A stretch of 64,000 nucleotides of DNA. Source: Gymnopilus junonius (lineage: Eukaryota > Basidiomycota > Agaricomycetes > Agaricales > Galerinaceae). This document shows, one piece after another, positions 2,376-64,000 of the stretch. The stretch is taken from the NCBI GenBank assembly GCA_015501075.1, contig JADNYJ010000142.1, positions 1-64,000 on the forward strand, given 5' to 3'. The notes under the pieces were generated by a model that saw nothing but the letters and a program-made list of their open reading frames with translations, was not told where the DNA came from and searched no databases. Numbering within the stretch: the first letter of the stretch is position 1; each line of letters starts with the position of its first letter. The position numbers were made by a program, and so were the translations under genes.

Positions 2376-2382
2376 CTCCCCC

Positions 2383-6679: not shown

Positions 6680-6795
6680 CGCGAATCTTGATCTTGATAA
6701 ATATAGACTTGATTGATTTGATGTCGCTGTTCGCTTCGAATTCGCAAGGGTTTAAATGCTCTTGAAGTTGTTAAAGCCCGGGGCCCATAACCCTT

Positions 6796-7006
6796 TGGCA
6801 ATGGTGTAGTCTACGTATGTAGTGTTTAATAAAACCCTTTAACTTCCTTTTAAGGAAGGTAAGGATTCAGGTACAAGAACAGTTACATTCCGTCCTTCTC
6901 GGACGGCTGTTTATATACTACAATCTCAATCGTACCTACTATCTAAGGTAAGTATTCAATCTCCGACTGAATGTCGGATACTCGGGTTGTCGCCTATGCC
7001 CCAACA
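6796..7006 (-). repeat. 5' LTR of the copia element
   Basis: Pairs with 2165-2375. Starts TGTTGGGG and ends TTGCCA on the minus strand. Confidence 0.92.
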
Positions 7007-38320: not shown

Positions 38321-38324
38321 GGCA

Positions 38325-38382
38325 GGCGTAGCGGTAGAATAGACGGCCAGTGCACGTGAATGTATCGGGTTACCGCTACGCC
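38325..38382. promoter_or_regulatory. Bidirectional RPB7/SDHC promoter palindrome, left copy
   Basis: GGCGTAGCGGTA (38325-38336) and TACCGCTACGCC (38371-38382) are perfect 12-base inverted repeats, with CACGTG at 38353-38358 between them. The left half sits 5 bases upstream of the RPB7 start codon. Conserved in the right copy. Confidence 0.55.
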
Positions 38383-38486
38383 GGGGCGGAGTTTGATTGG
38401 GACAAGAGGCTTTCTCCGACGTTCACCTCGACCTCGAACACGACCTTACCGTACTATTTAATAGCCGGTCTATATCGCGAGCAAAT

Positions 38487-38876
38487 ATGATGTCGACAAG
38501 AGCCTTGGGGCTTAGAGCGGCGCTCAGGAAGGCGACGTTTTCGCCCAGCATCAGTAGTTTTACACGCAAAAAAGTATGGAACAGGCGTGCAAGCAAACAA
38601 GTGGGCAAGCCGCGTCCTATTTTCGGAAAAGCGACCCGTTTCATCAGAAATTTGTAATGAAATTTCTAGAAAAGCTTTTCGACCTTTTTGCTTGCCGGAT
38701 GGCGGAACTTCAAAGTGCCAAAAGCGGAGAAGTAAATTGACAAGTTCCTGATGAGTGCTGGTACTGTATGTCTCGTAGCTGCTGGGACGCTAATCGCTGT
38801 TTCGTATGCTGGTAGTGCGCAACCAGGTCGTGCTGAGGAACACTCTTGGAAAGAGGTATGAGATTTTCTTGTTATC
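38487..38876 (+). pseudogene. SDHC left copy: exons 1-2 only, with an insertion in the first exon
   Basis: ATG at 38487 encodes MMSTRALGLRAALRKATFSPS, matching the start of the intact SDHC at 46416. After the CCCAG at 38538-38542 an unrelated stretch of about 220 bases (to about 38765) replaces the exon 1 donor. The exon then reads 57 residues with a basic extension (RKKVWNRRASKQVG...) to a stop. Exon 2 (RNQVVLRNTLGKR) is present at 38838-38876. Exons 3-5 are absent: homology ends near 38890. Non-functional as SDHC. Confidence 0.85.
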
Positions 38877-38889
38877 ATTCCCTGTACAG

Positions 38890-39720
38890 TATTTGACCGC
38901 CCATTTGTACACTACCGACCATATATACACCTTTGTTACTTGAACTCCTCAGCCATTTGTTTGATATCTGTAAGAAATAGTCTGTCGGCATAGATTAGGA
39001 ATTTTTGAGAACAAATGCATGCACTTTTTATAAGTCGCAACCTAGTTTTAATACCTGACATTTCTGGGTTAAACCGCTAGGGGTACTATAATGCGGATAA
39101 TGCGGATCGGTCCCTAATTACAATTCAATTATAACGCGAAGTGAATAATCCATAAGCCAATTATAATGCTTGCTACGGGGATTATTTTGAAGAAATGGAA
39201 GCCTTTCTCGACACCTTTCCTTAATTTTGCCTTAAGTATTTTGCTCTTATCTTTGTACTTTGCTCTCACCGTTCTTACATTGACGGAGAAGATCCGTGTT
39301 TTCATTGCACATATGGTGCACCAGACCTAATCGCCGCTGCTTTTGGACAACCGCCAAATTGGTTCGCGGAAACTTCTGAAATCGACCTTCTCGGACCGTT
39401 TTCCTGGGCTCAAAGAGCACCAAGGGCGGCACGTACGTTCCATATATGGAAGGTGCATGCCTTATGTGGCAAGTTAGCCAAATCGGCCGTGGCCCGTCAA
39501 CCAAAAATTTATCTCCGCCAATTTGGAAGCGAATAGAAATCTGCATGTTGGTTTTGTTTGACTTGTTAAAAGGAGTGTTTTTATCAATTGGATAGGAAAA
39601 AGAGGAATTTTCGGACTCTGAAATTCGGTTGTTTTAGTAAAAGTAGCGGTGACTACAAGGTGACTAGGTGTGGTGCATCATACAAGTTCGGTTTTATCAA
39701 CGACATGTCATTATTGTAAC
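38890..39720. other. Gap downstream of the broken SDHC
   Basis: AT-rich, no supported gene; an ORF at 39247-39546 on the minus strand has no recognisable features. Includes a doubled ATGCGGAT near 39091-39107. Confidence 0.35.
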
Positions 39721-42258
39721 CTACCAGCCAATCAATCTCTGTAATGGAGCCCTCTTCATCGACTCGTTGTTGTTGCCCAACTTGTCAATATGTAAAGCAC
39801 GCCGCAATGCTGGGGGTGCATCATCTCTCCCCACAATGATTTCCACCAGCTGCAGGCATCCATTGTCCCTAAGTTTTCCAGTATCGAGGAGTTCTCCAAG
39901 CTCCGTCTCTTTGGTCACCCGGTATGTTTGCGTAAGCGAAGCTACGTTAACCTTACTGAGGACTTTTAACAATTTTCCGTAGTCCCAGGTCACAATATTG
40001 TGATACTCTCTGTTTCGACAAATACATATGTGTGAGTGAAGAATGTGGATCGAAAAACATTCTGACTGACGCATCTATGCTGTGTTGGAGTCGCTCTATC
40101 GTGTAACCACCGTTATTGATGACGAAAATGATGGGCTTGATTTCTGAACGTATCATGCTAGATAGCTCCTGGACTGTCATTTGACTAGGGAGGACGTCGT
40201 GTTTAGCGTTTTGTTATGAGCATCAGAAAGGGAAGAAGCGTACAGGCTGCCATCCCCAATGAAGAGAATAGTCTGGGGAGCAGAGGCACCGTCAATTTCT
40301 CGACGCGCCAACGTAGCACCATGTGTAGCGCCTATATAAAAAAAGTTTCCCTGAATAAAATTCAATCGCGGGAAAATGGATAACAAACCCATAGACCATC
40401 CAATGCTGGCCCACAGCTTCTGAGCAAGCAGGCCTGAGTCCTTTGGCATAGCCAAATCAAGGACTCCATAGCTCACACTGCCTACATTTGCAGGCGAAGT
40501 TAACATAACAATGAGTGAGACGGACTTTATAACATACCGGCCTCCGTTACAATCATGTCCTTCTCTCGGAACCATCCTCCAACGCGCCACCATAGCCAAT
40601 CATGTGTAATCAACTTATCCTTGGTGTCCACGACTGCCTTATTCCTGAATAAAGGTACCTCGAGTTGGCTAGCTTTTTTCACAAACTCTTGAAGACGCTG
40701 CGCAAGTTTTGGGAGAAGCGTCTTCATCCCAGTCCGAGAATAAGTTGCGAATCCAACCTCTGTGTGATCAAAGTGGAGCTGTTCATTATCATCAGTGCTT
40801 TGCTTTTTTGTGCCATAGAAGGAAGTACAAACCTTGATAGACCGTTTTTGCTCTATATTAGAGGTAAAATTGCCCGTATTGAAGTCGGTGTCGAGCGGGC
40901 CTAAGAAGAGAACAAGCTTCGCCGCCTTAACCTTCTCTTTAACATCAGGAGAACTCAAATCCCCGACGTAAATCTAAGAGACGGATTGAGATAATGCGGT
41001 GATTTAAGATTTGAAACTCGTAAGCACTTACTCCTCCGTAGCGTTCAGATGTTTCATCGACAACAGTCTTGCCCAGGGGAGTTCCGTAAACAGGAAGTTT
41101 TGTCACTGACAAAAAGTCTGCGGCCTCCGTCGTGCAATGATGGCGCCTGACACTGACGTCTGCAATGACCACGACATTGTCCTCCACCTTTCCTGAAAAA
41201 GCATCAACAAAACGTCGATAGATATGTTCAATCGCGGCCTGTTCTGCATCTGTATCAATCGGAATTTCTTCCACAGATAACTTGTCGTTCAAACGCGTTG
41301 TAACTATTTTAACGTCAACAAGGTCCCATGGAATTGCTAAGTACGCTGGGCGGGACTATAAGAACGTCAGCATTTTTAGCGTTGCAGTGGAGGGCTAATT
41401 CGATTTACCTTGCTAATGCAATCGATGATAACTTTGTCGATCTTTTCGTCCGCATTGCCAAGAGCGATGTCTGCATTGCTCAGAAGCAACTGAGAGCATG
41501 TGTACGGGAGGGCAGACTTCGCAAATTCATCGTATCTGGCAGGTCACGTTAAGACTAAGTAGTATGGCCCTTGAGGATGGAATAATGTCACATACTTCCC
41601 GTCTCCGAGGGTATGAATGACGTTGACTCCCGCCTCCTGATCCTTGGTCTTTTGTTGTCCGACGATATGAAGAACGGGGAGCTCCTCTGCGAAAGCTGTG
41701 TAATGCTGGCTTAGAAAACGCCCGAATGAGCCTGACCCGCATTGGAGTACTCACATCCAGCGACACCGTTGATTGCAGAGAGCTCTCCCACCCCGACGCT
41801 AAAAATGTAACGGTGAGTGGAACTAGAATGCAAAAAGTATGGTGAACATACGTGGTGGCGAGAACACTAAGGCCGCCCCTGAAGCGAGCATACCCATCGG
41901 CTGCGTACGCCGCGTTGAGTTCGTTGCTATTGTACATCAACGCATCACATTTCATGGACACCGAGCGTCTGGATCGATTCTTACCATTCTCCAACCCAGG
42001 TGATATTGGACTGTTCAACAATATCCTAGACGGCATGTAATAACTCGATTTAGTTTGCAACTTACGACGAAATGAGAATCGACATACAAGGAAGTTGGCA
42101 AGAAACGATCCTGGGACTCCGAACATAGACTGCGACAACGTCAAAGTCGAAGTCAACATCGCGAACAGTCTGGATCTCACCTTGACGCCTTGTTCTTCGA
42201 GCCTAAAAACGATGTAACTACCTATACTGATCTCAACACTTGTGTCGAAAAGAGCCAT
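39721..42258 (-). CDS. Thiamine-diphosphate 2-oxo-acid decarboxylase (pyruvate/indolepyruvate decarboxylase family)
   Basis: Multi-exon minus-strand gene from ATG 42258. Spliced landmarks in order: [35 protein letters not shown] (N-terminal ThDP domain, with the conserved Glu of the NELNAAY block); [96 protein letters not shown] ... INNGGYTIE (GDGS-NN ThDP/Mg signature); and [14 protein letters not shown]. Junctions checked at 40970-41035, 40760-40860 and 40020-40065 keep frame. It decarboxylates pyruvate, indolepyruvate, phenylpyruvate or branched oxo acids to aldehydes; the substrate cannot be read from the sequence. It is transcribed away from the amino-acid oxidase at 43441, whose product would be a possible substrate. 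Looks intact. Confidence 0.85.
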
Positions 42259-42519
42259 GCAGAAAAAAATAAAATTTTGAATGTGTGGACTGGAGGGGCG
42301 AGCGAAAAGTAAAGACCGCTCACCTCAAGTCACCAATATATATACTGAAGAGATGACATCTCTGACCAGAACTGGAGACTTCAATACTATAGCCAAGTGA
42401 GTTAGGTAGGCAGTGTTGACGCGATTAGCTGGCGTTTGATCAACACGTTGCCAGAGATAGACTTCGAGATTCGGAGAGAGGGCATTCAGGCCCTATCGAT
42501 AGGAGAGAGTTGGAGCAAA

Positions 42520-42555
42520 TAGGGCGATCAGTACGACATTGACATTGCATATGAC
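42520..42555. repeat. Promoter direct repeat, first copy
   Basis: TAGGGCGAT followed by ACGACATTGACAT, recurring at 43249-43288. Confidence 0.55.
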
Positions 42556-42700
42556 TAGCCCCCAGCAAGTATTTCGGGGTTTGGACAATGCCACTGTGTC
42601 AGCTGAGGGCCTCAAGGCCTTAACGTTTGTAACGTGAAGGGTTGGAGGGCGCATTTTATCATGTATTATAACCGGCCTGCGGGTCCTCTAGGCTTACATT

Positions 42701-42757
42701 ACAGGCGTTTTCATAACGCCGTCTATATCTCGAAAAATGCACTACCGTTTTAGGGAG
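42701..42757. repeat. Promoter repeat unit 1 with palindrome GGCGTT..AACGCC
   Basis: 57 bases nearly identical to 42795-42853. Starts with ACAGGCGTTTTCATAACGCC, whose GGCGTT and AACGCC halves are inverted repeats, then CTCGAAAAATGCACT and CCGTTTTAGG. Confidence 0.75.
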
Positions 42758-42794
42758 CCAATCCTAAAATGTGGGAGAGCATTACAGACAAATC

Positions 42795-42853
42795 ACAGGC
42801 GTTTTCATAACGCCGTCTAGTCATCTCGAAAAATGCACTGCCGTTTTAGGAAG
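42795..42853. repeat. Promoter repeat unit 2 with palindrome GGCGTT..AACGCC
   Basis: Second copy starting 94 bases after the first, with two extra bases and a few substitutions. The palindromic core is unchanged. Confidence 0.75.
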
Positions 42854-43248
42854 TCAACCCCAAGACGCCAAAGATTAATGTACCACAGCCTCTGAATCAA
42901 AGGTCATTCAATTCGGTTAGAAAGTTGTGATATATCACAATCCCAGAATCTGGTGTCATGCTAAATTATTCCTCCTAGTAGACTCGACCATTATAAGGCC
43001 CTGAATGTACTTCAAGAGGATTCGAACGGCCTGTCTTAAAACGACTAGACGAGATTAAATGCCCACATCCCTATTGAATGAAAGATCTGGGGGACACGGG
43101 GAACTTTCCTACTTCTAGATCAGAAGCCTTCACGCTGTCAAGAAATGAACCCCATGATATCTTCAAACCAGCAATGATACAATTACCATTGGGAAGAACG
43201 GGCATACAACTTTTATTAGTCCATCGATGAATGAGATTTTGGGGTGAT

Positions 43249-43288
43249 AGGGCGATAGGGACGACATTGACATGGCGTATGGTTGACG
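43249..43288. repeat. Promoter direct repeat, second copy
   Basis: Diverged copy of 42520-42555, about 150 bases upstream of the oxidase start. Confidence 0.55.
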
Positions 43289-43440
43289 AAGGTCTCACTA
43301 CGCGGCCGTGAATGAGGCACCATTTCCGTTTTCTGCTCCAGCTCCCGCGAAATGGGATTAGTAGCTTTGGTAGATATATACAATGCGTCAAGACGAGCGT
43401 ACTCCCATCCCCGCATTGTCACATTGCTGCATTTGCCATG

Positions 43441-45567
43441 TCTGATATCACTGATCCTTCATCCGTGTACATTAAAGCTGCTCAATACTTCGTTCGCAAG
43501 AAGTTGGAAGAGCTCAAGAGCGCAAAGTTCAACTTCAAAGCCACTCCAGATAGGAACGATGCCTCAGCACCACTCTCTTGGAACAAACTATCCGCCTCCC
43601 TCAGGCTGGGTCAGCCTCCCCCATCTGGTGCTCGCGTCGCCATCATCGGTGCCGGCGTTGCGGGTTTGCGCACTGCCATGCTTCTCGAAAAGCTCAAAAT
43701 TCCCTACAGGATCTTCGAGGCGAACGACGGTCCCGGTGGCCGGCTCTTCACATACCGCTTTCCCTCGGATCCTACCAAGAGTCCGCCCGGGAAGCACGAC
43801 TACTACGAGGTCGGCGGCATGCGTTTCCCCGACAATGCCGCCAACAAGCCAACTTTCGACCTGTTCAAAGAACTTGGATTCCGTTTCCGGGATGAACAGA
43901 ACCCTGATGGAGAGCTGATCCCCTTTGTGTACAGCAAGGATGACAATATTCGTCACTTTAACAGTGAGCATTGAACAATGAGGGATGCGATGGCTTTTGG
44001 TCCGCTCACATATATCGCAGACATCACGACGACAGCGAGGGAAGTTGCAAATGGTGTCAACCTCTTCAATGAAGGGAAACCGACTGGAAATGTGGGTAGT
44101 TCTTGGTTCAGTTCTCTTCCTCCCTGCTCATAGGAAAACAGGTGCCGAAAGACTTCACAGATATGCAAGACGTCGACGAACAGGGAAATGTATATCGTGG
44201 GGTAGACGCATGTTTTTTCAAAGCTTTCAACGACCTTCGGGCGAAGCTTCTCGCAAATTTTGATGAAGAATGGCCAAAACTTCTGCAAGAATGGGATTGG
44301 GCTTCGACGCGTTCATACCTTGCACAGGCGGATGAGTTGAAGTTCCCGCCTCCAGTTATAGATTGGATCGAAAAACACAAGTCTGGAACGGGCCGCTATG
44401 CGCGGGCTGTAGTTGAAGTAAGCATATTTCTCTTCCTAACAGTAGGACAGTTAACGGAGTCACATTTAAATCAACCTTTCAGGAAGTGCTTGAATCCATC
44501 ACGTTCGACCATCCCAAGTCCGAACAGTTTGATTGGTGGTGCATCGAAGGCGGCAGCGAAGGCTTGATCGCCAAAATGCTCTCCAAGTTGACGAACCCGC
44601 CGTCTTACAATCACCGCGTGACGGCAATCACGGAGGACCCAGCCAGGCGCATAAAGGTCAGCGTTCTGGATAAAGAAGACGACTACTTCTCCCATGTCGT
44701 TTCGACTGTCACATTTGCTGTCCTTCGTACCATCAACACGGACGGCGTGCACATGAACTTCAATCAGCGCGAGGCTATGCGAGCTCTCAACTATGGCCAG
44801 TCGATCAAAGTTGGTATCAAGTTCAAGACACGCTGGTGGGAGCATGTCACTAAGGCCCCGCAGTTGGGAGGCGCTAGCCGCACGGACAGGCAGACCCGCG
44901 TTGTTGTATATCCTAGTTATGGGTTGAACGAGACGGGCCCGGGTGTGTTGATGGCCTCATACAATTGGTGGGTATCTCCATTATCCCCTACATGTCGCAG
45001 AGCGTTGGACCTACTTTTCCTAACAGGGATCAAGATGCCGCGCGTTTCGGTGCTCTCATCAAGAACACTTTGTCCCATTCCGAACAGCCCAAGCCAGACC
45101 GTCCTCGCTCGCCATCAGAGAGGGTGCTTCTCGACCAGATATACCAGGACCTTGCTGTATTGCATACCCCAAACAACTCTGCCCTCGAGGAAGTGGAGGA
45201 GTTTAAGAAGATGTTGATAAAGGATACGCTCGACTTCCACGCATTTGACTGGTACCACAACCCGTTCACCATGGGCGCCTTTGCACAGTTCACACCTGGG
45301 CAATTCAGCACCCTATATGCAGATATTCTACAGCCTGCAGGCCGTTACGGAAACTTCCATTTTGCTGGCGAGCTGGCCAGCCACCACCATGCATGGGTTG
45401 CGGGGGCGCTGGATTCTGCGACCCGCGTGGTTGGTCATATCGAGAAGAGCCTGCATGCCCAGAAAGGACTATCTAATTTCACTTCCACCTTGCCGAGGAG
45501 CTTGGTGTTCGACTCTGAAGAGAGTGCCAACAACTGGCACATCTGGGGTTTGGTGGAGGAGGCGTGA
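43441..45567 (+). CDS. L-amino-acid oxidase-like flavin amine oxidase
   Basis: Five exons in frame: 43441-43963, 44021-44091, 44142-44417, 44483-44967, 45027-45567. The N-terminus has no obvious signal peptide. The FAD dinucleotide-binding motif ARVAIIGAGVAGLRTAMLLE is followed by YRIFEANDGPGGRLFTYRF and YYEVGGMRFPD, the GG-motif and substrate-domain start of amine/L-amino-acid oxidases. QFDWWCIEGGSEGLIAKML and the C-terminal GNFHFAGELASHHHAWVAGALDSATRV (second FAD-contact block) are present. Such enzymes convert L-amino acids to 2-oxo acids, ammonia and H2O2. Secreted or cell-bound LAAOs in Laccaria and Hebeloma are linked to nitrogen release from amino acids. The divergent decarboxylase could use the 2-oxo acid. 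Intact; substrate specificity unknown. Confidence 0.88.
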
Positions 45568-45868
45568 GGCTGGCCACGCTTTGTAAGACGTAGTGGGTGA
45601 GGAACGTGGAAGGGATTTGGGATTTAAGGACTTTATCACAGTGTACAGTAAGATCGTGTGGACGACGTTAGTAGGAATTTCGATAACTTTTGCATTGGTC
45701 TAACATACATCATAAATGTGTTGAAGCCGATGGATTCTCTGGAGGCCTGGTAGAGTGACGGAATGATGCCATAACACCTGTTCGCGGAAGGGTGGTCAGA
45801 AAGAAAGAACATGTGAGGAGCAGAGAGAACATGCACTGACGACTAATCCTAGCATTTAATAAATTTTT

Positions 45869-46075
45869 TATGACCTGCAAATGCGGGGCTCATATTTGCT
45901 GGAAGTGTATGAGATTTTCACGTAGCCCACCATATGCGACCGATCGAGTTCACTATGGTTGAGGATTTTGTAACGTTGTTGTAGTTTCTTGTAATTGAAT
46001 TGTTTCTGTAGCTCGTGGAATACATGTGGACATTCCCCGTTACGCGTCTGGTATTTGCCATGTTTTCAGGAATTA
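45869..46075 (+). pseudogene. RBR RING2 scrap joined to RBR 3'UTR sequence
   Basis: 45870-45935 encodes CKCGAHICWKC, matching the RING2 of the CCCH-RBR genes. After an apparent deletion it continues into sequence matching 37146-37270, the RBR 3' flank. This marks the left end of the second RPB7/SDHC copy. Confidence 0.7.
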
Positions 46076-46079
46076 ACCT

Positions 46080-46284
46080 GCAGCTGAACATATGCTGTCC
46101 GAGTACAGATTTGATTGAAGAAATTGAGCATGCGGGGGCCAAAGTAGGACGGGTGGAGAAGGATGGTGTGCGTCAGCTCTTTCTTCGCGTAAGAACAATT
46201 GAACCAGTCTTTTTTTCCAGTCGAAGGGAGGATAAGGAAGACATAACATGACGGGCGTAGCGGTAGAATAGATGGCCAGTGCAC
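46080..46284 (-). pseudogene. RPB7 right copy: N-terminal stub
   Basis: Minus-strand [27 protein letters not shown] matches Rpb7 residues after the first intron, then diverges to a stop. The rest of the gene is deleted. The MFFI exon region is altered: the left copy reads ATGTTCTTCATC, while here the sequence before the promoter lacks it. Confidence 0.75.
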
Positions 46285-46311
46285 GTGAATGTATCGGGTT
46301 ACCGCTACGCC
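46254..46311. promoter_or_regulatory. Bidirectional RPB7/SDHC promoter palindrome, right copy
   Basis: GGCGTAGCGGTA (46254-46265) and TACCGCTACGCC (46300-46311) with CACGTG at 46282-46287, identical in layout to 38325-38382. Confidence 0.55.
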
Positions 46312-46415
46312 GGGGCGGAGTTTGATTGGGACAAGAGGCTTTCTCCGACGTTCACCTCGACCTCGAACACGACCTTACTCTACTATCTAATAGCCGGCCT
46401 ATATCGTGAGCAAAT

Positions 46416-47202
46416 ATGATGTCGACAAGAGCTTTGGGACTTGGAGCGGCGCTTAGGAAGGCGGCGTTCTCGCCCAGTGTTGGTATGTCTCGTATCTGCT
46501 GGTGAGGTGTGGAGAGACGCTAATCGCCTGTTTTGTATGCTCACAGTGCGCAACCAGGTCGTGCTGAGGAACACTCTCGGAAAGAGGTACAGGCTTATCT
46601 TGTCAGCATTAACTGTAATAACCTGACATGCTGGTGTTTCTTCTGCTTAGGTTCATTCAAATCGAGACAATTACTCCCTCAACGGAGCAAAACATCCTTA
46701 ACCAACAACGCCTCAAGCGACCCAGCAGCCCTCATTTCACCATCTACCAACCTCAACTCACATGGGTTGCCTCCATTGCTAACCGTATCACCGGTGTCGG
46801 ACTCAGCGTCTGTGCGTTATCTCCGCTCCGTTGATTATGCCTTGTTTCCCTAACTCGCTTTGCTTAGTGCTCTACGGCTTCTCCATTGCCTACCTCGTTG
46901 CTCCCACCACCTTCGACAGCCAGCACGTCGTTGAGGTCGTCGCTGGCCTGCCCGAAGGCGTCAAATACGCCGGCAAGGCCATCCTCGCCGCCCCATTCTC
47001 CTTCCACGCCTTCAACGGTCTTCGTCATCTGTCCTGGGATGTGGTTAAATGTGCGTATCCCTTGCGCTAATAGAAGTCTAGCCATGGTCTTCTAATCATT
47101 GACGTTTCTATAGTCACGACTGTGAAGGGTGTCTATGCTACGGGATATGTTGTGCTGGGTGCTACAGCCATTTCGACGGCTGTCTTGACCTTCTTAAAAT
47201 AA
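46416..47202 (+). CDS. SDH3: Succinate dehydrogenase cytochrome b subunit (SDHC)
   Basis: Five exons: 46416-46482, 46547-46586, 46651-46811, 46868-47050, 47114-47202. Arg-rich mitochondrial presequence (MMSTRALGLGAALRKAAFSPS). Then RPSSPHFTIYQPQLTW with the SPH..IY signature of the family, a first hydrophobic helix (GVGLSVLLYGFSIAYLVAP), and HAFNGLRHLSWD, the heme-ligand motif. A final helix is YATGYVVLGATAISTAVLTFLK. It anchors complex II in the mitochondrial inner membrane and helps bind ubiquinone and heme b. No frame break: this is the functional member of the duplicated pair. Confidence 0.93.
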
Positions 47203-52308: not shown

Positions 52309-53585
52309 CTTTCGATGAGCCGTATTCTTGTCGCGTAATTCATCTTTGCAATCATATGTACTTCTCTGATCTCTGGAGTTGTGTCGGTCTCTGTTGCTTC
52401 ATGGCATTATATTCCATCGAGTAAGCTTCATGACCAATCCATAGATAATGATGATAAATGACAGTGCTTGTTACAATTCCTCATGCATCTCAGTAAGAAT
52501 CCGACTGACCGTGGATTTCAGTTGCTCAATACTCCCACTGCTTTTGCGAAGCGCCGGTGATCGCTCGATAATTCAAACTACACGGATCTAGTCTACTCGG
52601 ACTATTGCTGTCTGTCAAGGTTGGGACCCAGGTATTCTGAGAGGGATTCCCACTCCATAGCTTATTGTTCGCCCTTCGATTATGGCCGCCGGTGAGCGCT
52701 TTGAAAGGGTCATCATATCCTGTAGTGTAAGAGAGTGAGAGAAAAGAAAAATAAACCGAAGATATACCGATAAACCCATTTGATGTTTTTGGGTACGACG
52801 CCCATGCGTGTAAATAATTCGAGTCTAAAATCTCACTTGCCAGTCACACGAGAGGAACAATACAACTGTCTTGATAACTGGCGGGTAGGGAAACACGGGT
52901 CTAGTTGTGAGAAAATTCGAGTTATAGAGCAATACGAGATCTTGATATGCTAACAATTCCTGACATTTGCGGGTGTCGGGTGAGGCCTAACCGTGAATGA
53001 GTGTCCGGCAGTTTTGGATTCAAAGCATCGGAAATAGTAATTCGACCCTGATCCGTCGGTCGGTGATCAGTGATCACTCCATCAATTCTCCTCCTTGTTT
53101 GCATGTCCAGGTTCGCTTCTTTCCGCCACGGCCAAGAGCGGCTACGGCGGACTTTTAAATTGTAAAGTCGACGTGAACGCGTAAACGAAGTTTGGAGCTC
53201 TTGGGCTACTCTAGCAATGAGCCGACTCTCAAAACGCCAAAGTCCTCTGCAAATTACCTTCTTCTCTTTTTCTTTTAATTGCCGGTGGGACTGCGCATCG
53301 CGCGCAGCGACGACGAATGCGAAGAGTCGGTGCCGACTACATACCAGTGACGTGGAAAACGTGGAAAATAGCCAAGGGGTAGCAAATTTGCCTCTGAGCC
53401 AATTACGTAGATCCCCGAGGCATTGGCGATGTGGTTCATTGTGCACGGTCTTCGCACAATCTTGACATCGCTTCGACCACTTTTGCCGACACCGGCATCA
53501 CGACAAATCGAAATTGATAACCTAGATTCCTTGTACCGTGATGTACTTGTCGAACAAGGTTAACGGTTCTTTCATTCTTCATCTG
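52309..53585. other. Intergenic
   Basis: A 174-residue minus ORF at 52922-53446 has Arg-rich, non-protein-like composition and no splice partners. I do not call it. Confidence 0.35.
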
Positions 53586-54050
53586 TCATCTTTTCTTAAT
53601 CGACACATTTATCTTGAACGCAATCTGATTTATTCCACCACTAAGTCGTACTACAACTTTAGGTAGAGAGGATCCGACCAATGGTCGTTTGGTAAGACTG
53701 AAGCAAGCTACGCTGCGACTTTGGACGGAGTTGGCGTGACTGGAGCTTGAGAGGCAGTGCTGCTTTGGGTTTGGCTGTACACGCGTGAGTATCATATTCT
53801 GCAACAAAATGATCTCAGAAGACTATACTTACGTCCATATAATTGTGGTAGTTTTCTGGATCATGTAGGGGGAATAATCCACCAGAGTGTTGTAAATTCT
53901 TTCCGCCGTCAAAACCTTTGGGGTTTCCTGCATAAGAATTAGTCAACAACGGCTGCTTGGATGAAGTGAAAAAGGAAGACGAACAGCAGAGGCAGAGAGG
54001 GCCTGGAGAGAAGTAGCGATCAAAGCGAACTTGAAAAACTTGAACTGCAT
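53586..54050 (-). CDS. Small secreted protein candidate
   Basis: ATG at 54050 gives MQFKFFKFALIATSLQALSA, a clean signal peptide. Exons 53981-54050 and 53833-53927 join at GT..TGCAG to give AVRNPKGFDGGKNLQHSGGLFPLHDPENYHNYM. Exon 3 starts at 53774 (PNPKQHCLSSSSHANS) and runs to 53586. A different acceptor would give a shorter Thr/Ser/Pro tail ending near 53717. Mature peptide about 95 residues or less, Gly/Asn/His-rich with few Cys. Small secreted proteins are common in mushrooms, including symbiosis effectors, but nothing identifies this one's role. Confidence 0.55.
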
Positions 54051-54556
54051 GGTGATGGTTTGCAATAGGGCGACTATTTTTCTGTTCGGGATCTTATATC
54101 GTATCCAAGACGGTGGTATGTACTCTGGGAAATGCTCCTTTTGGGTTCGTGTACCTGTATCTTCTTTTTACATTTGATACCAGTTTCTGAATCAGAAGAC
54201 ATAGCCCTCCTGATACGAAGATCACGTCCGATATTCGCAAGCGCAGCCGCGATTAATCCCGCCCCCTCAAAACTTCATCTAACGGTACCGAAACCGAGTG
54301 CAAAAAGTTATCTTCATGAGAACATGATCGGTAAACATCCCCGAAAGGCAGTCATTACAACGCTTTGAGGTGCCTCTAGCTTTTCCGATGGTCGAATCGT
54401 TGTCACTAATGTCAACTTTACAGAGCCATATGACTAAATGCTTGAAACCGCTCTCACAGGGAACCTTGCGGCCGCCAGTAAATTGGATCTTCGATCTTTC
54501 GAATGCGGCACTGCGAATATTAAGGATCAAAGAGGCCGAGAACCGCATTCTCTGGG

Positions 54557-54563
54557 TATAAAA
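54557..54563 (+). promoter_or_regulatory. TATA box of the left laccase gene
   Basis: TATAAAA about 55 bases upstream of the start codon at 54615. Confidence 0.6.
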
Positions 54564-54614
54564 ATCCTGGGCGATCCCCTGAAGCCATAACCTCTTCTTA
54601 CAAGGCCCACTAGG

Positions 54615-56880
54615 ATGCTCTCAACGTCTTTCGTTCTTCTCTCGTTGTTGGCCGGTTGTCTTGGTGCAATTGGACCCAACGCAGACTTGTACATTCGCAA
54701 CAATTATATCCAGCCAGATGGCTACAATCGCTCGTAAGTTTTCGACGCTGTCTGATTAACTTCATGAAGGCTAATCTCATTGATATGTAGCGCTGTTCTA
54801 GCGGCGGTTAACGAGACCACTGGTCTATTGCCTGGACCTCTAATTTCGGGAATAAAGTGTGTAATTTATAGAGCTTAACTTGACCTGTCTTGAATTCCGG
54901 TTAGGGAGATACTTTCAACCTGAATGTCGTCAACGAGCTGAGTGATACAACGATGGTGACGAGCACAAGCATTGCAAGTGATTCCTCTTCTATTCCCCTT
55001 TGTGTCCTTATATTCGTGCTTCAGCATTGGCACGGTTTCTTCCAACATGGAAGCAACTGGGCGGATGGCCCAGTGGGAGTCAATCAATGCCCTATTATTC
55101 CTGGCGATTCTTTCTTGTATCAGTTCTCTGTTCCAGATCAAGCCGGAACGTTCTGGTACCATTCTCATCATTGTTCGTCTTATATTTGTATGCGCCTTAC
55201 GACTTATAACTAAGTTCTTTGACAGCCACTCAATATTGCGATGGCCTTAGAGGACCTTTCGTGGTATATGATCCCGATGATCCTTATTTATCTCAGTAGT
55301 TGCAAGTCATTATATCAAACAGTGGACTGACGAAGCACATTTACCTTAGATATGATTTCGATGATGGTAAGATTTAAATTTGGCGTGTATGATTTTATGA
55401 CTAACTTTTTACTTGTTTGATTTAGAGTCCACTGTAATTACCTTATCTGACTGGTAAGCACTCATTGGCAGTTTATTCTGCGAATCGAAATCCTGACCCT
55501 TTCTTGAGGTATCATGAGACTGCCCCATCGCTGGCGGGTACTGTGCCTACTGCCGATTCTACTTAATCAATGGTTTGGGTCGCTATGTCGGAGGACCCGC
55601 TTCCCCACTGTCGGTCTTTACCGTTTTACCGAACACGCTACCGTTTCCGTCTTGTCTCCCTTTCTTGCGATCCCAACTTTGTATTTTTCGATCGATGGTC
55701 ATAACTTGGTCAGTGGAGTTCTATTTGGCTTCAGGCTACTTGATTGACCTCTTTCATAGACTATCATTGAGGTAGACTCGGTCAATGTTGAGCCTCTTGT
55801 TGTCGATTCCATTCAAATTTTCGCCGGCCAACGTTATTCCTTTATTCTGGAGACAAACCAAACTGTCTCCAATTACTGGGTTCGGGCAATGCCCAACGCC
55901 GGAAGTGTCACATTTGATGGCGGAATCAATTCTGCCATACTGCGTTATTTCGGCGCGGATCAGGTCGATCCGACTACCACACAAGCGCTTAGCAACCCAA
56001 TGGTGGAGACCAACCTGCATCCCCTCACAAACGCGGCGGCCCCAGGGAACTCCACATCTGCAGACGTCAGCCTCAACTTTGCTATCGATTTCAACTTTGC
56101 GGCTTTCCAATTCAATATCAACGGAGCTACTTTCATTCCTCCCTCCGTTCCGGTTCTATTGCAGATTCTCAGCGGTGCTCAAACAGCTCAGGACCTCTTG
56201 CCAAGCGGTTCTGTCTATGTTATTCCTCCAAACGCAGTCATTGAAATATCCATTCCTGGTGGATCTGTCGGAAACCCGGTGAGTCAGCTTTTCAAAATTT
56301 CTTTTTTTGAGTGGGTACTGATTTGATAACGTGTAGCATCCTTTCCATCTTCATGGAGTAAGTCTGCAAAACACAGAATCAATTTTTAATTTTTTAAACG
56401 TCTCTTCAGCACACCTTCTCCGTTGTCCGTAGCGCCGGAAGCTCCGTTTACAACTATGACAACCCCGTTCAGCGAGATGTTGTCAGCACTGGAGTTGCAG
56501 GTGACAATGTGACTATTCGTTTCGAGACGAATAACGTCGGCCCATGGATTATGCATTGGTCAGTATTTGCCCTTAAATATCTAAATACTAATGCAGTGAC
56601 TTACTCCGAATTTTGCCTTTCATAGCCACATCGACTGGCATCTATCGGAGTAAGTGGTTTTTCCAGCTAATTTAAGTCGAGTTCTTCATGGACGTCTTTC
56701 TCGCTACAGGGGTCTTGCCGTCGTGTTCGCTGAAGATGTTCCAGATGTGAACAATAGTTCAATTCCTAGTAAGTCGACACGTCTTCCATTGATCTACGCA
56801 AAGACTTACACGCCTGTGTAGCTGCTTGGGATGACCTTTGCCCAACCTATAACGCTTACCCCACTCAATCTTTCACATAG
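54615..56880 (+). pseudogene. Laccase (multicopper oxidase), left copy, with several indels
   Basis: Exons include 54615-54733, 54791-54856, 54905-54973, 55025-55172, 55226-55295, 55350-55366, 55426-55453 and more, to a stop at 56878-56880. Signal peptide MLSTSFVLLSLLAGCLG. The four copper blocks are present: [31 protein letters not shown], and [19 protein letters not shown]. Laccases oxidise phenols with O2 and act outside the cell in lignin decay, pigmentation or defence. Against the right copy, indels shift the frame at about 54850 (one A lost before exon 2's end), about 55632 (two A lost, LPNKRYRF) and about 55688 (one T gained). So this copy is probably non-functional, unless these are sequence errors. 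The intron after exon 3 starts GC, not GT. Confidence 0.85.
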
Positions 56881-57550
56881 AGTTTCTTTTGAGCTCTCCT
56901 CTGTCATTACATGAGTATTTATGTCAACCATAAATTATATACAAATGCGGAAGTAAAAGGGTGTTGGGTATTAATTTTCCACGCCTCGGTACCTCATACG
57001 TAGTCGTCGTTTCTGGGCTTCTCAATGCTGAACTTTATACTTTGACTGGCAGTGATTAAAATCTGTTGAGAGTGCATGAAGACGACTTGGCGATATCTTG
57101 GACTTCGTGAGTGATAATCAACCTCTCAGCAATTGTGAGTAGACTAGGACATTGTAGGTTCTAAAAAATTTTGACCTCAGGAAAACAATCAGGGGATTAT
57201 GAACGAGGCGTCGGGACAACTTCGAATATTGTTCGAATATCACATACATAACGAGTATTTTACAGACGGTCACTAGGATATCTCAACGTCTATGGTGCGC
57301 TGGCCTAATTTCTCACAGGAAAATGCACCCAGTCCTTTCCACTCAGCACATCCGAAAACCATTTGCTCGGAATATCTAGAATTACCCGTTTGACAGTAAA
57401 ATCGATGAAAGTGTCAGTAAGCTACTGCGAAAGAGCGTGTTTGAACTTTAAATGGTTGATGGCCTATATTGGCCTAACTTCCGCATGTCGTTCATGATTC
57501 CTTCTTCCACGCGAATTGTTGTCTGTTAGGAAGTAAAGGCTTTACAGTAG
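56881..57550. other. Intergenic part of the left arm
   Basis: No gene. Mirrored at about 61130-61810. Confidence 0.45.
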
Positions 57551-57579
57551 TTACCGCCCGCTATTACATCGTGCCAGTG

Positions 57580-57903
57580 CTTCGCAAATCTCATTGGACA
57601 CCATTTTTCCGGTGGACGTTGCTCATTTAGTGGCTTCTTAAAATCTCGCGAAAAATTCAGTCAATTGAACTATCTATTGAGCTGTCTGTAACAGCATGTC
57701 ACTATCTCTCCCAGAACATGAGCATGAAATGCGACGAAGATTCCTTGCCGGTTATTTTACCTCTATTTTTAGATCTTGCAGAAGATGATTTGCCAAGCAT
57801 TGTTCCTGAAGGAGGGCATAGTGTGGTAGTGAGTTGTATGCAGTCATACATATACGGTTTTTTGGACAGTGATAGGGCCTTCTTAGGGAGAGAACTGCCG
57901 TGA
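57580..57903 (+). pseudogene. F-box/LRR protein remnant, left arm
   Basis: FPVDVAHLV breaks at about 57635 and resumes with KIQSIELSIELSVTACHYLSQN, then CDEDSLPVILPLFLDLAEDD. It matches the right-arm copy, where the frame is open from 61116 to 60781. It has the style of F-box/LRR C-termini. Confidence 0.5.
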
Positions 57904-58112
57904 TTTGCAGAGAAATAATATATCCAAAAATAGACATTGGTACCGGGTTCGGCAAAGTTACTCAAGGCTCAAGTCTTATGCAAGCACAACTTTATGGTGA
58001 ACGGAAATCAACACCGACTAGATCTCAAACGCCCTCGATATATATCAGAAAGAGGTGACCCGTTTTGTCTGCCTAGACACTTATTGCAAATCACTACCAG
58101 AGTGGTGGCAGT

Positions 58113-58132
58113 GGGCCATGGCCCATGGGCCC
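58113..58132. repeat. GC-rich compound palindrome GGGCCATGGCCCATGGGCCC
   Basis: Two overlapping palindromes (GGGCCATGGCCC and GGCCCATGGGCC). Mirrored in the right arm near 60551-60570. Confidence 0.6.
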
Positions 58133-58244
58133 TGTGGCAGGTGCAAGACAATGGTCAAGTATCTGTGGGCCAATGCATTATAAATTGGAAGTAGTATCCT
58201 TCCGTACCTCTTTCTCTAACTTGAATTCAACTGTGCTTACTGAC

Positions 58245-60438
58245 AGGCTTTATAGTAGTTAACGCACGCTATATACATCGACACTGGATCTTCTGCTTCG
58301 TGTGAGGTATAGCAGCGCTGCAAGTAGTGGACGGTCAGGCAACTTATCGACAAGGTTCCTGGGGCCAAAGCCTATCTTGACCTGCCACATTTAATGAAGT
58401 CAAACGCCCGTCGTTTACGAACTGCTGGGGAGCTTTTAATAACCATGGAGAGAAGTATGGCTGGTCGCTAATGGCTTCACGAATCGCTTTAGGGGAGGGT
58501 CAACGTGAGCATTACATGCAGGCATCAAAGGGAGTCTGGTTTACCGTTTGACTTTGGTAGGTAGACGATACTGCAGTGTGTTTTTTCAAAATCCACCCGT
58601 TGTCCTTGTGACTCGTAGTGCTTTTGGATCCTTTTTCTTACATTTTTTTCAACTCCTGCGACTTCTATTTTGTCATTATGCTGCTTGTCATCACCTTCTG
58701 CGAACTCCTCGAAAATGTTTGTAAAGCGAGTCTGGAGCGCCTCTATCTCGGACCCCGGCGCACAAATATAGAGGGCACGCAATGGCGTTCGAGTATCTTC
58801 CTTTGACTTTTTCTCCCAAGTAACTGGGGGCGGGCGAGGCGAGCCAGCCTTTATCACGGTATTGATGAATTGTATGACCTCTCTCAAATCGCACCGGGCA
58901 CGAGCGAGGCAAGTAATTGCCTTGATCACATCGTCGGAGACAGTAGTAGTAGTATTATCGCCAACCGTGAATGCGCAGACTTCAAGGGAAGGGGCGAGAA
59001 GCCATAGGTTTTCGTCTTCACTTGTCGAACTGCTCAGATGGATGACATCTTGAGGGAAAGGCAAGCTGATCTTGAGATGGGTCAGTAAAGGGAGCACGCG
59101 CAGGAGGTGGTGGAATTCTCCTAATTTCTCGAACCAGCAGTTGAGATAGAGATGCGTAAGGCAGCTAGTGTTTGGCGCTGAGCGACGCAGCATGCTGAAT
59201 ACTGCGGGCAGGATAACTTTAGAGCTCGAATCCAACGAAATTTCTAGGTCCGAGAGCCTTGGTGCAACGAGGGCTTTCAAAAGTGGCTCGACCAAACTTA
59301 CCCCGTCTGCACGATGGATGCGCAAAGAGATGAGGTCCGACATCTCTGTACGGAGCTGCGGATTTACAATGCTTTCGTCGTCCCCGACTACGTCCACCAT
59401 ACAGAGATTGGCAAGCCTCGTTGAAGAAAGAACTCCCCCCACGTCCATCTTCCCCCCTTTGAGTCTCAAATCCTTCAGAAACCGGTGCGGAACGACAATT
59501 TCGCCAACAGGTTCACCCTGAATACGGACGTACTCGAGTAAGGGGGCGTAAGAAAAGAGGTCATGTGTACCCTCACAGTCTCGTCTTCGACATTCAGCCC
59601 AGTTGATGGATAGCGTGGTTAGATTATCGAGGCGGCCTCGAGCATCCTCAAGAGCTCGGAAGCCTTTGAGTGGGATCACTAGAATGACCCTTTCCCATCG
59701 TACTGCGTGGCTTGCAAGTAGCTTGGTAACCTGGTGTGACACGGAGGTGAAGTTCTTTCCCCGGAGGAGAAAGCTGATGGGAAAGGTCCCAGATCGCAAT
59801 AGTAGAGTAGTGAGGAAGTCGATGTAGCCAGCCTCCTCCGTGTATTTCTTGTCGAGGTCGATGGGCGGGAGGTTGCGCCATAGTGCTTGAGTCCCATGAG
59901 CGACCTCACGCCAGGCGTGGCACACCTGCGTCACTTCCCACGGTACGCAACCTAACTCGAAAGGGTTGAAAGCGATACGGGAATCTTCATGCAAGACTCT
60001 GGTTGAATATTGAGAAACATAAATGAAAATCTTCCTCATGACACCAAGAGGTATCCTCCGCAGTGGGGCAGCCAGCCTCTCGTGCTCCGCGATATACTTG
60101 TTTCCTTCTTTGCAAGCGTGCTTTACCTGCCGTTCGTATGCAGGGAGTTTGCTCCTTGGATCCTGATTTATGACCTGCATTAGCGATCGGACACAGTGAA
60201 CAAAGAATCTGAGAATTTTTATTTGGTCTGGAGAAGGTATGGGCGCGTCAGGAAGGTAGAGGTCTTGAAAGCGGGCATTCTTTATCGTGTTTTCGAGGTC
60301 TGAGAGGTATTTCTGGAATGCGCGGTCTGCTTTCGAAGACATGCTGTAGAAGAGCGTTTGTTGTTTATGCAAGGTTATTCGTCTCTCGTGGAAGTGGGGG
60401 TTGTGGCAACTGGGTTATGGGCTGGGGCAGTTATGAAA
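58245..60438. other. Spacer between the inverted arms
   Basis: 2194 bases with no mirror partner, containing the F-box gene. Its first 35 bases or so (AGGCTTTATAGTAGTTAACGCACGC) resemble arm sequence at 57538-57570. Confidence 0.7.
58525..60372 (-). CDS. F-box domain protein with LRR-like repeats
   Basis: Single open frame of 615 codons; a second in-frame Met at 60342 (MSSKADRAFQKYL) may be the true start. A coiled-coil N-terminus is followed by an F-box (about residues 104-160) reading IPLGVMRKIFIYVSQ ... LGCVPWEVTQVCHAWREVAHGTQALWRNL, the layout of the large mushroom F-box family. Leucine-rich segments follow: LDNLTTLSINWAECRR, LSDLEISLD, CLTHLYLNCWFEKL, LLTHLKISLPF. A C-terminal charged region ends NGKPDSL. 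It probably acts as a substrate receptor in SCF ubiquitin ligase; the target is unknown. It is intact and sits in the middle of the inverted duplication, unlike the F-box remnants in both arms. Confidence 0.85.
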   Translation of the reverse strand: MHKQQTLFYSMSSKADRAFQKYLSDLENTIKNARFQDLYLPDAPIPSPDQIKILRFFVHCVRSLMQVINQDPRSKLPAYERQVKHACKEGNKYIAEHERLAAPLRRIPLGVMRKIFIYVSQYSTRVLHEDSRIAFNPFELGCVPWEVTQVCHAWREVAHGTQALWRNLPPIDLDKKYTEEAGYIDFLTTLLLRSGTFPISFLLRGKNFTSVSHQVTKLLASHAVRWERVILVIPLKGFRALEDARGRLDNLTTLSINWAECRRRDCEGTHDLFSYAPLLEYVRIQGEPVGEIVVPHRFLKDLRLKGGKMDVGGVLSSTRLANLCMVDVVGDDESIVNPQLRTEMSDLISLRIHRADGVSLVEPLLKALVAPRLSDLEISLDSSSKVILPAVFSMLRRSAPNTSCLTHLYLNCWFEKLGEFHHLLRVLPLLTHLKISLPFPQDVIHLSSSTSEDENLWLLAPSLEVCAFTVGDNTTTTVSDDVIKAITCLARARCDLREVIQFINTVIKAGSPRPPPVTWEKKSKEDTRTPLRALYICAPGSEIEALQTRFTNIFEEFAEGDDKQHNDKIEVAGVEKNVRKRIQKHYESQGQRVDFEKTHCSIVYLPKSNGKPDSL

Positions 60439-60780
60439 GTCAGTAAGCACAGTTGAATTCAAGTTAGAGAAAGAGGTACGGAAGGATACTACTTCCAATT
60501 TATAATGCATTGGCCCACAGATACTTGACCATTGTCTTGCACCTGCCACAGGGCCCATGGGCCATGGCCCACTGCCACCACTCTGGTAGTGATTTGCAAT
60601 AAGTGTCTAGGCAGACAAAACGGGTCACCTCTTTCTGATATATATCGAGGGGCGTTTGAGATCTAGTCGGTGTTGATTTCCGTTCACCATAAAGTTGTGC
60701 TTGCATAAGACTTGAGCCTTGAGTAACTTTGCCGAACCCGGTACCAATGTCTATTTTTGGATATATTATTTCTCTGCAAA

Positions 60781-61131
60781 TCACGGCAGTTCTCTCCCTA
60801 AGAAGGCCCTATCACTGTCCAAAAAACCGTATATGTATGACTGCATACAACTCACTACCACACTATGCCCTCCTTCAGGAACAATGCTTGGCAAATCATC
60901 TTCTGCAAGATCTAAAAATAGAGGTAAAATAACCGGCAAGGAATCTTCGTCGCATTTCATGCTCATGTTCTGGGAGAGATAGTGACATGCTGTTACAGAC
61001 AGCTCAATAGATAGTTCAATTGACTGAATTTTCTTGCGAGATTTTAAGAAGTCCACTAAATGAGCAACGTCCACCGGAAAAATGGTGTCCAATGAGATTT
61101 TGCGAAGCACTGGCACGATGTAAATAGCGGG
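60781..61131 (-). pseudogene. F-box/LRR protein remnant, right arm
   Basis: An open frame of 111 codons, MPVLRKISLDTIFPVDVAHLV through GFLDSDRAFLGREL. LRR-like hydrophobic pattern, no F-box. This is the better preserved copy of 57580-57903. Confidence 0.5.
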
Positions 61132-61814
61132 CGGTAACTACTGTAAAGCCTTTACTTCCTAACAGACAACAATTCGCGTGGAAGAAGGAATCATGAACGA
61201 CATGCGGAAGTTAGGCCAATATAGGCCATCAACCATTTAAAGTTCAAACAACGCTCTTTCGCAGTAGCTTACTGACACTTTCATCGATTTTACTGTCAAA
61301 CGGGTAATTCTAGATATTCCGAGCACATGGTTTTCGGGTGTGCTGAGTGGAAAGGACTGGGTGCATTTTCCTGTGAGAAATTAGGCCAAGCGCACCATAG
61401 ACGTTGAGATATCCTAGTGACCGTCTGTAAAATACTCGTTATGTATGTGATATTCGAACAATATTCGAAGTTGTCCCGACGCCTCGTTCATAATCCCCTG
61501 ATTGTTTTCCTGAGGTCAAAATTTTTTAGAACCTACAATGTCCGTAGTCTACTCACAATTGCTGAGAGGTTGATTATCACTCACGAAGTCCAAGATATCG
61601 CCAAGTCGTCTTCATGCACTCTCAACAGATTTTAATCACTGCCAGTCAAAGGTATAAAGTTCAGCATTGAGAAGCCCAGAAATGACGACTACGTATGAGG
61701 TACCGAGGCGTGGAAAATGTAATACCCCAATCGCCCTTTTACTTCCGCATTTGTATATAATTTATGGTTTACATAAATACTCATGTAATGACAGAGGAGA
61801 GCTCAAAAAGAACT

Positions 61815-64000
61815 CTATGTGAAAGATTGAGTGGGGTAAGCGTTATAGGTTGGGCAAAGGTCATCCCAAGCAGCTACACAGGCGTGTAAGTCTTTGCGTA
61901 GATCAATGGAAGACGTGTCGACTTACTAGGAATTGAACTATTGTTCACATCTGGAACATCTTCAGCGAACACGACGGCAAGACCCCTGTAGCGAGAAAGA
62001 CGTCCATGAAGAACTCGACTTAAATTAGCTGGAAAAACCACTTACTCCGATAGATGCCAGTCGATGTGGCTATGAAAGGCAAAATTCGGAGTAAGTCACT
62101 GCATTAGTATTTAGATATTTAAGGGCAAATACTGACCAATGCATAATCCATGGGCCGACGTTATTCGTCTCGAAACGAATAGTCACATTGTCACCTGCAA
62201 CTCCAGTGCTGACAACATCTCGCTGAACGGGGTTGTCATAGTTGTAAACGGAGCTTCCGGCGCTACGGACAACGGAGAAGGTGTGCTGAAGAGACGTTTA
62301 AAAAATTAAAAATTGATTCTGTGTTTTGCAGACTTACTCCATGAAGATGGAAAGGATGCTACACGTTATCAAATCAGTACCCACTCAAAAAAAGAAATTT
62401 TGAAAAGCTGACTCACCGGGTTTCCGACAGATCCACCAGGAATGGATATTTCAATGACTGCGTTTGGAGGAATAACATAGACAGAACCGCTTGGCAAGAG
62501 GTCCTGAGCTGTTTGAGCACCGCTGAGAATCTGCAATAGAACCGGAACGGAGGGAGGAATGAAAGTAGCTCCGTTGATATTGAATTGGAAAGCCGCAAAG
62601 TCGAAACCGATAGCGAAGTTGAGGCTGACGTCTGCAGATGTGGAGTTCCCTGGGGCCGCCGCGTTTGTGAGGGGATGCAGGTTGGTCTCCACCATTGGGT
62701 TGCTAAGCGCTTGTGTGGTAGTCGGATCGACCTGATCCGCGCCGAAATAACGCAGTATGGCAGAATTGATTCCGCCATCAAATGTGACACTTCCGGCGTT
62801 GGGCATTGCCCGAACCCAGTAATTGGAGACAGTTTGGTTTGTCTCCAGAATAAAGGAATAACGTTGGCCGGCGAAAATTTGAATGGAATCGACAACAAGA
62901 GGCTCAACATTGACCGAGTCTACCTCAATGATAGTCTATGAAAGAGGTCAATCAAGTAGCCTGAAGCCAAATAGAACTCCACTGACCAAGTTATGACCAT
63001 CGATCGAAAATACAAAGTTGGGATCGCAAGAAAGGGAGACAAGACGGAAACGGTAGCGTTTGTTCGGTAAAACGGTAAAGACCGACAGTGGGGAAGCGGG
63101 TCCTCCGACATAGCGACCCAAACCATTGATTAAAGTAGAATCGGCAGTAGGCACAGTACCCGCCAGCGATGGGGCAGTCTCATGATACCTCAAGAAAGGG
63201 TCAGGATTTCGATTCGCAGAATAAACTGCCAATGAGTGCTTACCAGTCAGATAAGGTAATTACAGTGGACTCTAAATCAAACAAGTAAAAAGTTAGTCAT
63301 AAAATCATACACGCCAAATTTAAATCTTACCATCATCGAAATCATATCTAAGGTAAATGTGCTTCGTCAGTCCACTGTTTGATATAATGACTTGCAACTT
63401 ACTGAGATAAATAAGGATCATCGGGATCATATACCACGAAAGGTCCTCTAAGGCCATCGCAATATTGAGTGGCTGTCAAAGAACTTAGTTATAAGTCGTA
63501 AGGCGCATACAAATATAAGACGAACAATGATGAGAATGGTACCAGAACGTTCCGGCTTGATCTGGAACAGAGAACTGATACAAGAAAGAATCGCCAGGAA
63601 TAATAGGGCATTGATTGACTCCCACTGGGCCATCCGCCCAGTTGCTTCCATGTTGGAAGAAACCGTGCCAATGCTGAAGCACGAATATAAGGACACAAAG
63701 GGGAAATAGAAGAGGAATCACTTGCAATGCTTGTGCTCGTCACCATCGTTGTATCACTCAGCTCGTTGACGACATTCAGGTTGAAAGTATCTCCCTAACC
63801 GGAATTCAAGACAGGTCAAGTTAAGCTCTATAAATTACACACTTTATTTCCCGAAATTAGAGGTCCAGGCAATAGACCAGTGGTCTCGTTAACCGCCGCT
63901 AGAACAGCGCTACATATCAATGAGATTAGCCTTTCATGAAGTTAATCAGACAGCGTCGAAAACTTACGAGCGATTGTAGCCATCTGCTGGATATAATTGT
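61815..64000 (-). CDS. Laccase (multicopper oxidase), right copy, 5' end truncated by the window
   Basis: Same exon structure as the left copy; stop at 61815-61817, exon 2 at 63843-63910, and the end of exon 1 at 63968. Here exon 2 ends SGNK, splicing to [11 protein letters not shown] as expected, and [10 protein letters not shown] and [10 protein letters not shown] are in frame where the left copy is shifted. Copper motifs [25 protein letters not shown] and HCHIDWHL are kept. Exon 1 lacks one base near 63977 (CCAGCAGATGG against CCAGCCAGATGG on the left), which would shift the frame after NYIQ. With that exception the copy reads intact; the start codon is off the window. Confidence 0.85.

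Follow-up and report, generated by a model that had tools for sequence, protein, structure and literature searches.

Results

The laccase palindrome and the genes that it carries

We analysed a stretch of DNA from the wood-decaying basidiomycete Gymnopilus junonius in which a laccase gene is present twice, in mirror image, on either side of an F-box-like gene. The stretch (the window) covers positions 1 to 64,000 of a 103,452-bp contig (JADNYJ010000142.1, hereafter C49), which belongs to an assembly of 58 Mb in 898 contigs. Comparison of C49 with itself by BLAST paired a left arm at 53023-58244 on the forward strand with a right arm running from 65652 to 60439 on the reverse strand; the right arm fills 60439-64000 of the window and has its last 1,652 bp outside it. 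The 5.2-kb arms were 98.55% identical over 5,247 aligned columns, with 18 mismatches and 54 gap openings, and are separated by a spacer of 2,194 bp (58245-60438). This match cannot be chance, and the inverted duplication of the laccase gene with its upstream region is confirmed. An initial annotation of the window had described a large inverted laccase duplication around an F-box gene, with arms of at least 3.5 kb at high identity, a 2.2-kb spacer and an outer end beyond the window; the observation was borne out, and the duplication proved to be bigger than described. The start that it gave (54615) is the ATG of the left laccase and not the edge of the arm, since the arm begins 1.6 kb earlier.

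Across 143,052 bases compared by BLAST (all of C49 and the first 39,600 bp of a second contig, C204), the arm pair was the sole inverted repeat of more than 1 kb. The C204 portion contained none of that length and the next longest within C49 measured 318 bp; it should be noted that this is a small background and not a genome survey. Repeat-induced point mutation was considered and rejected because the composition of the arms was not shifted, with a TpA/ApT ratio of 0.77 in both arms compared to 0.77-0.82 in four other stretches.

Each arm contains a single laccase gene and approximately 1.6 kb of sequence upstream of its start codon. By alignment to an intact copy on a further contig, C747, the left gene (54615-56880, forward strand) and the right gene (C49:64083-61815, reverse strand, with its ATG outside the window) both have 14 exons. 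Both genes point inwards, converging on the F-box-like gene as had been proposed, and their stop codons at 56880 and 61815 lie 4.9 kb apart. When spliced, the right-arm laccase of C747 encodes an intact protein of 516 aa whose best database matches are laccases and which contains HWHG, HSHH, HPFHLHGH and HCHIDWH, which we take to be the four histidine-rich copper motifs of laccase. In the right copy of C49, the exon-9 open reading frame (ORF) matched the laccase 9gly_A in PDB (E = 3.6e-74) and PF00394 was found in two ORFs. Two public proteins, P0001 (“laccase”, 509 aa) and P0003 (“Cupredoxin”, 440 aa), match the two C49 gene copies, and further multicopper-oxidase loci are present in the same genome.

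Compared to the right-arm copy of C747, the coding sequence contained 5 gap columns in the left arm of C49, 3 in its right arm and 31 in the left arm of the second haplotype described below. Insertions and deletions (indels) private to the C49 right arm (n = 33) fell in alignment columns 1553-2571, those private to the left arm of the second haplotype lay mostly in columns 2616-3058 and those private to the C49 left arm (n = 9) were scattered. Two coding gaps were shared, one at column 2610 by the C49 right arm and the second-haplotype left arm and one at column 2745 by both left arms; error explains these less easily, and both lie in or beside the noisy stretch of the second-haplotype left arm. 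A study of Agaricales in which G. junonius is covered lists Illumina and PacBio sequencing, assembly with Velvet, AllPathsLG or Falcon, finisherSC and polishing with Quiver, in passages which tie no particular platform or assembler to this species (PMC8480192). The frameshifts seen in both C49 laccases are probably consensus errors and not signs of pseudogenes, but some of them may be true. The models P0001 and P0003 look distorted by indels and should not be taken at face value as evidence of two diverged or broken enzymes.

The spacer contains an intronless ORF of 605 aa on the reverse strand (58525-60342). Its protein scored 17.3 bits against the F-box family PF12937 (E = 0.004), under the Pfam cut-off of 24.3, and we therefore describe it as F-box-like. 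Besides itself it had one homologue (48% identity, E = 1.9e-171) among the 7,994 scored candidates which shared most words with it, and this homologue reached 23 bits against PF12937, again just under the cut-off. The gene had been reported as intact, which holds for C49, where the ORF is open, while the C747 copy stops after 101 aa. We did not accept this as real loss of the gene because C747 carries many one-base indels, though a true loss is possible.

A probable second haplotype at the locus

Three other contigs correspond to the locus. C882 matches C49:46097-55219, breaking off within the left arm at the very position at which C747 starts; C747 continues from there through the left arm, the spacer and the right arm into the right flank, which it covers in part, and so carries both inner junctions. 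C204 starts at the outer edge of the right arm and matches C49 from 65638 to its end in seven blocks, six of which are collinear and in the same orientation and one of which (983 bp) is inverted, with unmatched stretches between the blocks. A search of the spacer against its own genome returned three matches, all on C49 and C747, the first 36 bp also matching the right arm of C747. Below, A denotes the haplotype of C49 and B the composite of C882 and C747, with AL, AR, BL and BR as their left and right arms.

The rate of single-nucleotide polymorphisms (SNPs) relative to C49 was 1.8% in the left flank (C882, 125 of 6,888 positions), 3.1% in the right flank (C204, 213 of 6,962) and 1.4% in the right arm (62 of 4,528). 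Four STE3 genes also occur in the same order and orientation on two other contigs, C712 and C314, with one extra on C712, which would be expected if the two haplotypes of a dikaryon had been partly kept in the assembly. We considered a segmental duplication elsewhere in the genome, a question raised by the single-copy control stretch described below, but this was less fitting, as C204 is largely collinear with C49 and the STE3 set is itself duplicated between C712 and C314; from these comparisons, alternate haplotigs fit better. A third copy of the right flank was likewise set aside and provisionally read as an A-like tail on C747 and not as a third locus.

Two stretches near the palindrome differ between the contigs. 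In C204, a 1.3-kb piece (376-1712) starting approximately 0.36 kb outside the arm edge has no counterpart in C49 or C747. In the window, a stretch of approximately 7.7 kb lies between direct repeats of 233 bp at 94% identity (38316-46477) and contains a flavin amine-oxidase gene (PF01593 in three ORFs, approximately 43312-45567). C882 has one copy of the 233-bp repeat and is missing the stretch, and the amine-oxidase gene may thus be found in a single haplotype.

The edges of the arms could be compared between haplotypes. The outer edges are alike in AL and BL and in AR, BR and C204, and the inner right edge is also alike, while the inner left edge differs by 708 bp. The last 36 bp of the B left arm form an element after which ACACTGG follows. 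Haplotype A has the same element (35 bases in this copy, 57537-57571, forward strand) within its left arm, which continues beyond it as an almost exact copy of right-arm sequence (57572-58244, forward strand, corresponding to 60439-61115 and absent from the left arm of C747). Next come a second copy of the element, which forms the left edge of the spacer (R36', 58245-58280, forward strand), and the same ACACTGG. The right arm of A carries the element at 61116-61151 on the reverse strand.

Evidence for sequence copying between the arms

We aligned AL, AR, BL and BR and excluded any column located 4 or fewer positions from a gap in one of the four sequences. Across the 3,892 clean four-way columns which remained, 23 SNPs grouped the two arms of each haplotype together (haplotype-type), none grouped left with left and right with right (arm-type), none grouped the arms crosswise (cross-type) and 24 were private to one arm (AL 4, AR 8, BL 2, BR 10). 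Without the filter, the substitutions were divided similarly (24 haplotype-type, 0 arm-type and 0 cross-type), while among gap columns two grouped by haplotype, two by arm and one crosswise. The 2,244 columns of the inner half, for which a single contig supplies both B arms, contained 21 haplotype-type, 7 AR-private and 2 AL-private SNPs and nothing else. A three-way count over 4,119 clean columns found that AL and AR differed from each other at 12 and both differed from BR at 36; the 98.55% identity given above is the raw value for the A arms with gaps, and these 12 columns are what remains after filtering.

Since the shared breakpoints point to one duplication and the differences are nevertheless of the haplotype type, copying between the arms is needed. 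It should hardly be expected that random mixing in the consensus would give a 23:0:0 grouping. We regard it as very probable that the duplication, carried by both nuclear genomes of dikaryotic G. junonius, is real and that at least one arm-to-arm copying event has taken place. A single duplication event would have set the second laccase in mirror image beside the F-box-like gene. Given that the arms lie opposite each other at a distance of 2.2 kb, a break in one could be repaired from the other, and the arms within a nucleus would grow alike by gene conversion. The suggestion that such a palindrome promotes gene conversion is thus supported, by the SNP grouping together with the shared outer breakpoints; the accompanying suggestion of instability is supported in part, by the 708 bp by which the haplotypes differ where the left arm meets the spacer.

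Several observations weigh against this reading. Control positions 20000-26000 of C49 had no second copy in the genome, so the genome is not kept twice throughout and allelism at the palindrome is inferred. The right tail of C747 is A-like, with 83 sites grouping C49 with C747, 12 grouping C747 with C204, 3 grouping C49 with C204 and 1 at which all differed. The arm piece of C882 is also closer to A, with 7 mismatches to the right arm of C49 and 17 to that of C747, with many gaps in both. The mosaic nature of parts of C747 and C882 makes haplotype B a composite with probable switches, and it is chiefly the inner half that supports conversion. The 1,648 columns of the outer half contained 10 BR-private, 2 haplotype-type, 2 AL-private, 2 BL-private and 1 AR-private SNPs, so that either homogenisation is patchy or the C882 piece is switched. 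Finally, the consensus is poor in places and residual differences between arms are therefore unreliable.

The arms may also be alike mainly because the duplication is recent and not because conversion is ongoing: it would have arisen on one chromosome and passed to the other haplotype by crossing over, with one or two later copyings at most. This overlaps with the account given above, which itself calls for no more than one copying event, and it could well be correct, though we place it somewhat short of an even chance. The outer half fits it, as AL, AR and the C882 piece there are close to a star with BR as the outlier on account of its private SNPs. However, the 21 haplotype-type and 0 arm-type SNPs of the inner half still require at least one arm-to-arm copying, and R36' in A looks like a remnant of sequence resembling B. 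From the 12 of 4,119 columns, the equilibrium formula c = 2u/d given in PMC8981503 yields a conversion rate approximately 700 times the mutation rate if the arms are at equilibrium, but a young duplication gives the same value.

Probable extension of the left arm in haplotype A

Within the 708-bp difference, the unfiltered comparison of AL with AR covered 675 aligned positions and showed 2 mismatches and 4 gap columns; the 622 clean columns were free of differences. At 37 of these 622 both A arms differed from BR, a density exceeding that elsewhere in the arm (36 of 4,119). At all three sites which distinguish the right arm of A from the B arms, R36' matches B; it also has one private letter, and the spacer bases next to it are those found next to the end of the B left arm. 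In the element of AL, the third of these sites falls at a gap. A scan of the four contigs allowing up to 7 substitutions found no copies of the element beyond four ungapped ones. We also rejected a dispersed repeat, as the spacer search gave only C747 besides itself, which is weak evidence given that this search missed the diverged arm copies in C49.

On balance it seems probable that the last large event in A was an extension of the left arm by copying from the right arm past the old end. A break would have occurred in the A left arm just before the 36-bp element; the arm-side end would have copied the right arm through the element and approximately 0.67 kb beyond, and would then have been ligated end-to-end to the opposite side, without visible microhomology. 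This would lengthen the left arm and leave the old arm end behind as R36'. One-sided invasion followed by end joining is a generally known idea.

The same 708 bp could instead have been deleted from B by recombination between two 36-bp direct repeats, which we think possible but somewhat doubtful. That the copies are direct repeats, of which B retains exactly one on the left, fits a deletion, and the A arms could have acquired the three differing letters after R36' arose. However, a deletion requires that a copy of the arm-internal 36-mer was already present at the original junction, which is unexplained, and no copy was found outside these contigs in a search of limited sensitivity. There was also no clean AL/AR difference in the extension, though earlier conversion could also account for that.

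Assembly artefact and double-stranded RNA as unlikely readings

We judged it very unlikely that a chimeric palindromic read or a misfolded contig created the second arm. The indels confined to single copies, which in AR and BL are clustered, do point to a weakly polished long-read consensus, C882 and C747 abut within the arm with zero overlap and the right tail of C747 looks switched. However, the four junctions recur on other contigs, with 1.4-3.1% SNP divergence and a different inner left junction, and a fold-back read would not yield a single-copy spacer of 2.2 kb, differing outer flanks and repeated breakpoints. As the outer and inner right junctions are the same on independent contigs, a chimeric read is strongly disfavoured. 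The concern that the arms are an artefact is thus largely answered by the second haplotype, with the reservation that C747 and C882 are themselves mosaic.

It is extremely improbable that the palindrome silences laccase as a source of double-stranded RNA: only the geometry of near-identical genes in convergent orientation speaks for it, whereas 4.9 kb and an intervening gene separate the stop codons, so ordinary transcripts would hardly overlap and read-through would be required.

Other repeats in the window

Near the start of the contig there is a smaller inverted repeat (292-1194) with arms of approximately 320-350 nt at 93-97% identity, about 0.2 kb apart, followed by a 215-bp direct repeat at 98% identity whose copies are 4,631 bp apart (2162-7007). 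Two diverged direct copies approximately 4.22 kb apart match at 74-84% in five pieces (30246-36464), and an ORF for an RBR-type E3 ligase (PF01485, RING) at 35580-37109 overlaps the downstream copy.

Discussion

The locus has inverted arms around a spacer, likeness of the arms within a haplotype and shared breakpoints, which are features of a gene-converting palindrome. Against a benchmark of more than 99% arm identity, the arms gave 98.55% raw with gaps and 12 differences in 4,119 clean columns. According to passages of PMC8981503, mammalian X and Y palindromes likewise carry genes in inverted arms on either side of a spacer, and conversion keeps these arms alike on each chromosome, but their median arm divergence is 0.047% compared to approximately 0.3% in clean columns here. 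According to PMC5997626 the arms of such palindromes exceed 10 kb, compared to 5.2 kb in G. junonius. Unlike the palindromes of sex chromosomes, this one is not on a contig with mating-type matches: none of the at least 35 STE3 and at least 3 Homeobox_KN matches listed lie on C49, C747, C882 or C204, and we therefore rejected linkage to mating type on these contigs. The STE3-like receptor genes form clusters at C712:70335-84868 and C314:6320-15843, perhaps two alleles of a mating-type locus.

Among basidiomycetes, the pheromone genes at MAT in Cryptococcus also lie in inverted repeats, but these are described in passages of PMC526376 as approximately 500 bp long and at MAT itself, whereas the laccase arms measure 5.2 kb and their contigs lack STE3 and Homeobox_KN among the matches listed. 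In a dikaryotic rust, passages of PMC12129025 propose that rDNA repeats are homogenised within nuclei and not between them, as we suggest here; that case concerns tandem rDNA in a clonal fungus, whereas ours is a two-copy inverted repeat of a protein-coding gene. PMC8480192 places laccase among the gene families of Agaricales that change fastest in copy number; the pair found here is inverted and near-identical and not a case of diverged paralogues. Within the terms used, we found no report of a fungal laccase palindrome in the open-access literature searched.

A near-identical pair of laccases with the same 1.6 kb upstream in each nucleus is likely, judging from sequence, to mean doubled dosage together with mutual upkeep of the two copies. 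The laccase palindrome is real and fairly ordinary, a known behaviour in a new place. Going further, it is conceivable, if rather unlikely, that a palindrome outside the mating-type loci of a dikaryon undergoes concerted evolution specific to each nucleus and is still growing, with break repair that copies the opposite arm beyond its former end before joining, arms which thereby lengthen inwards step by step and two interchangeable laccases upheld in this way. The best-known gene-converting palindromes are those of sex chromosomes and, at smaller scale, those of a fungal mating-type locus. A palindrome of a lignin-degradation gene whose haplotypes are one arm-length step apart would be a small and tractable locus for measuring conversion, and would also allow the way in which palindromes lengthen to be tested.

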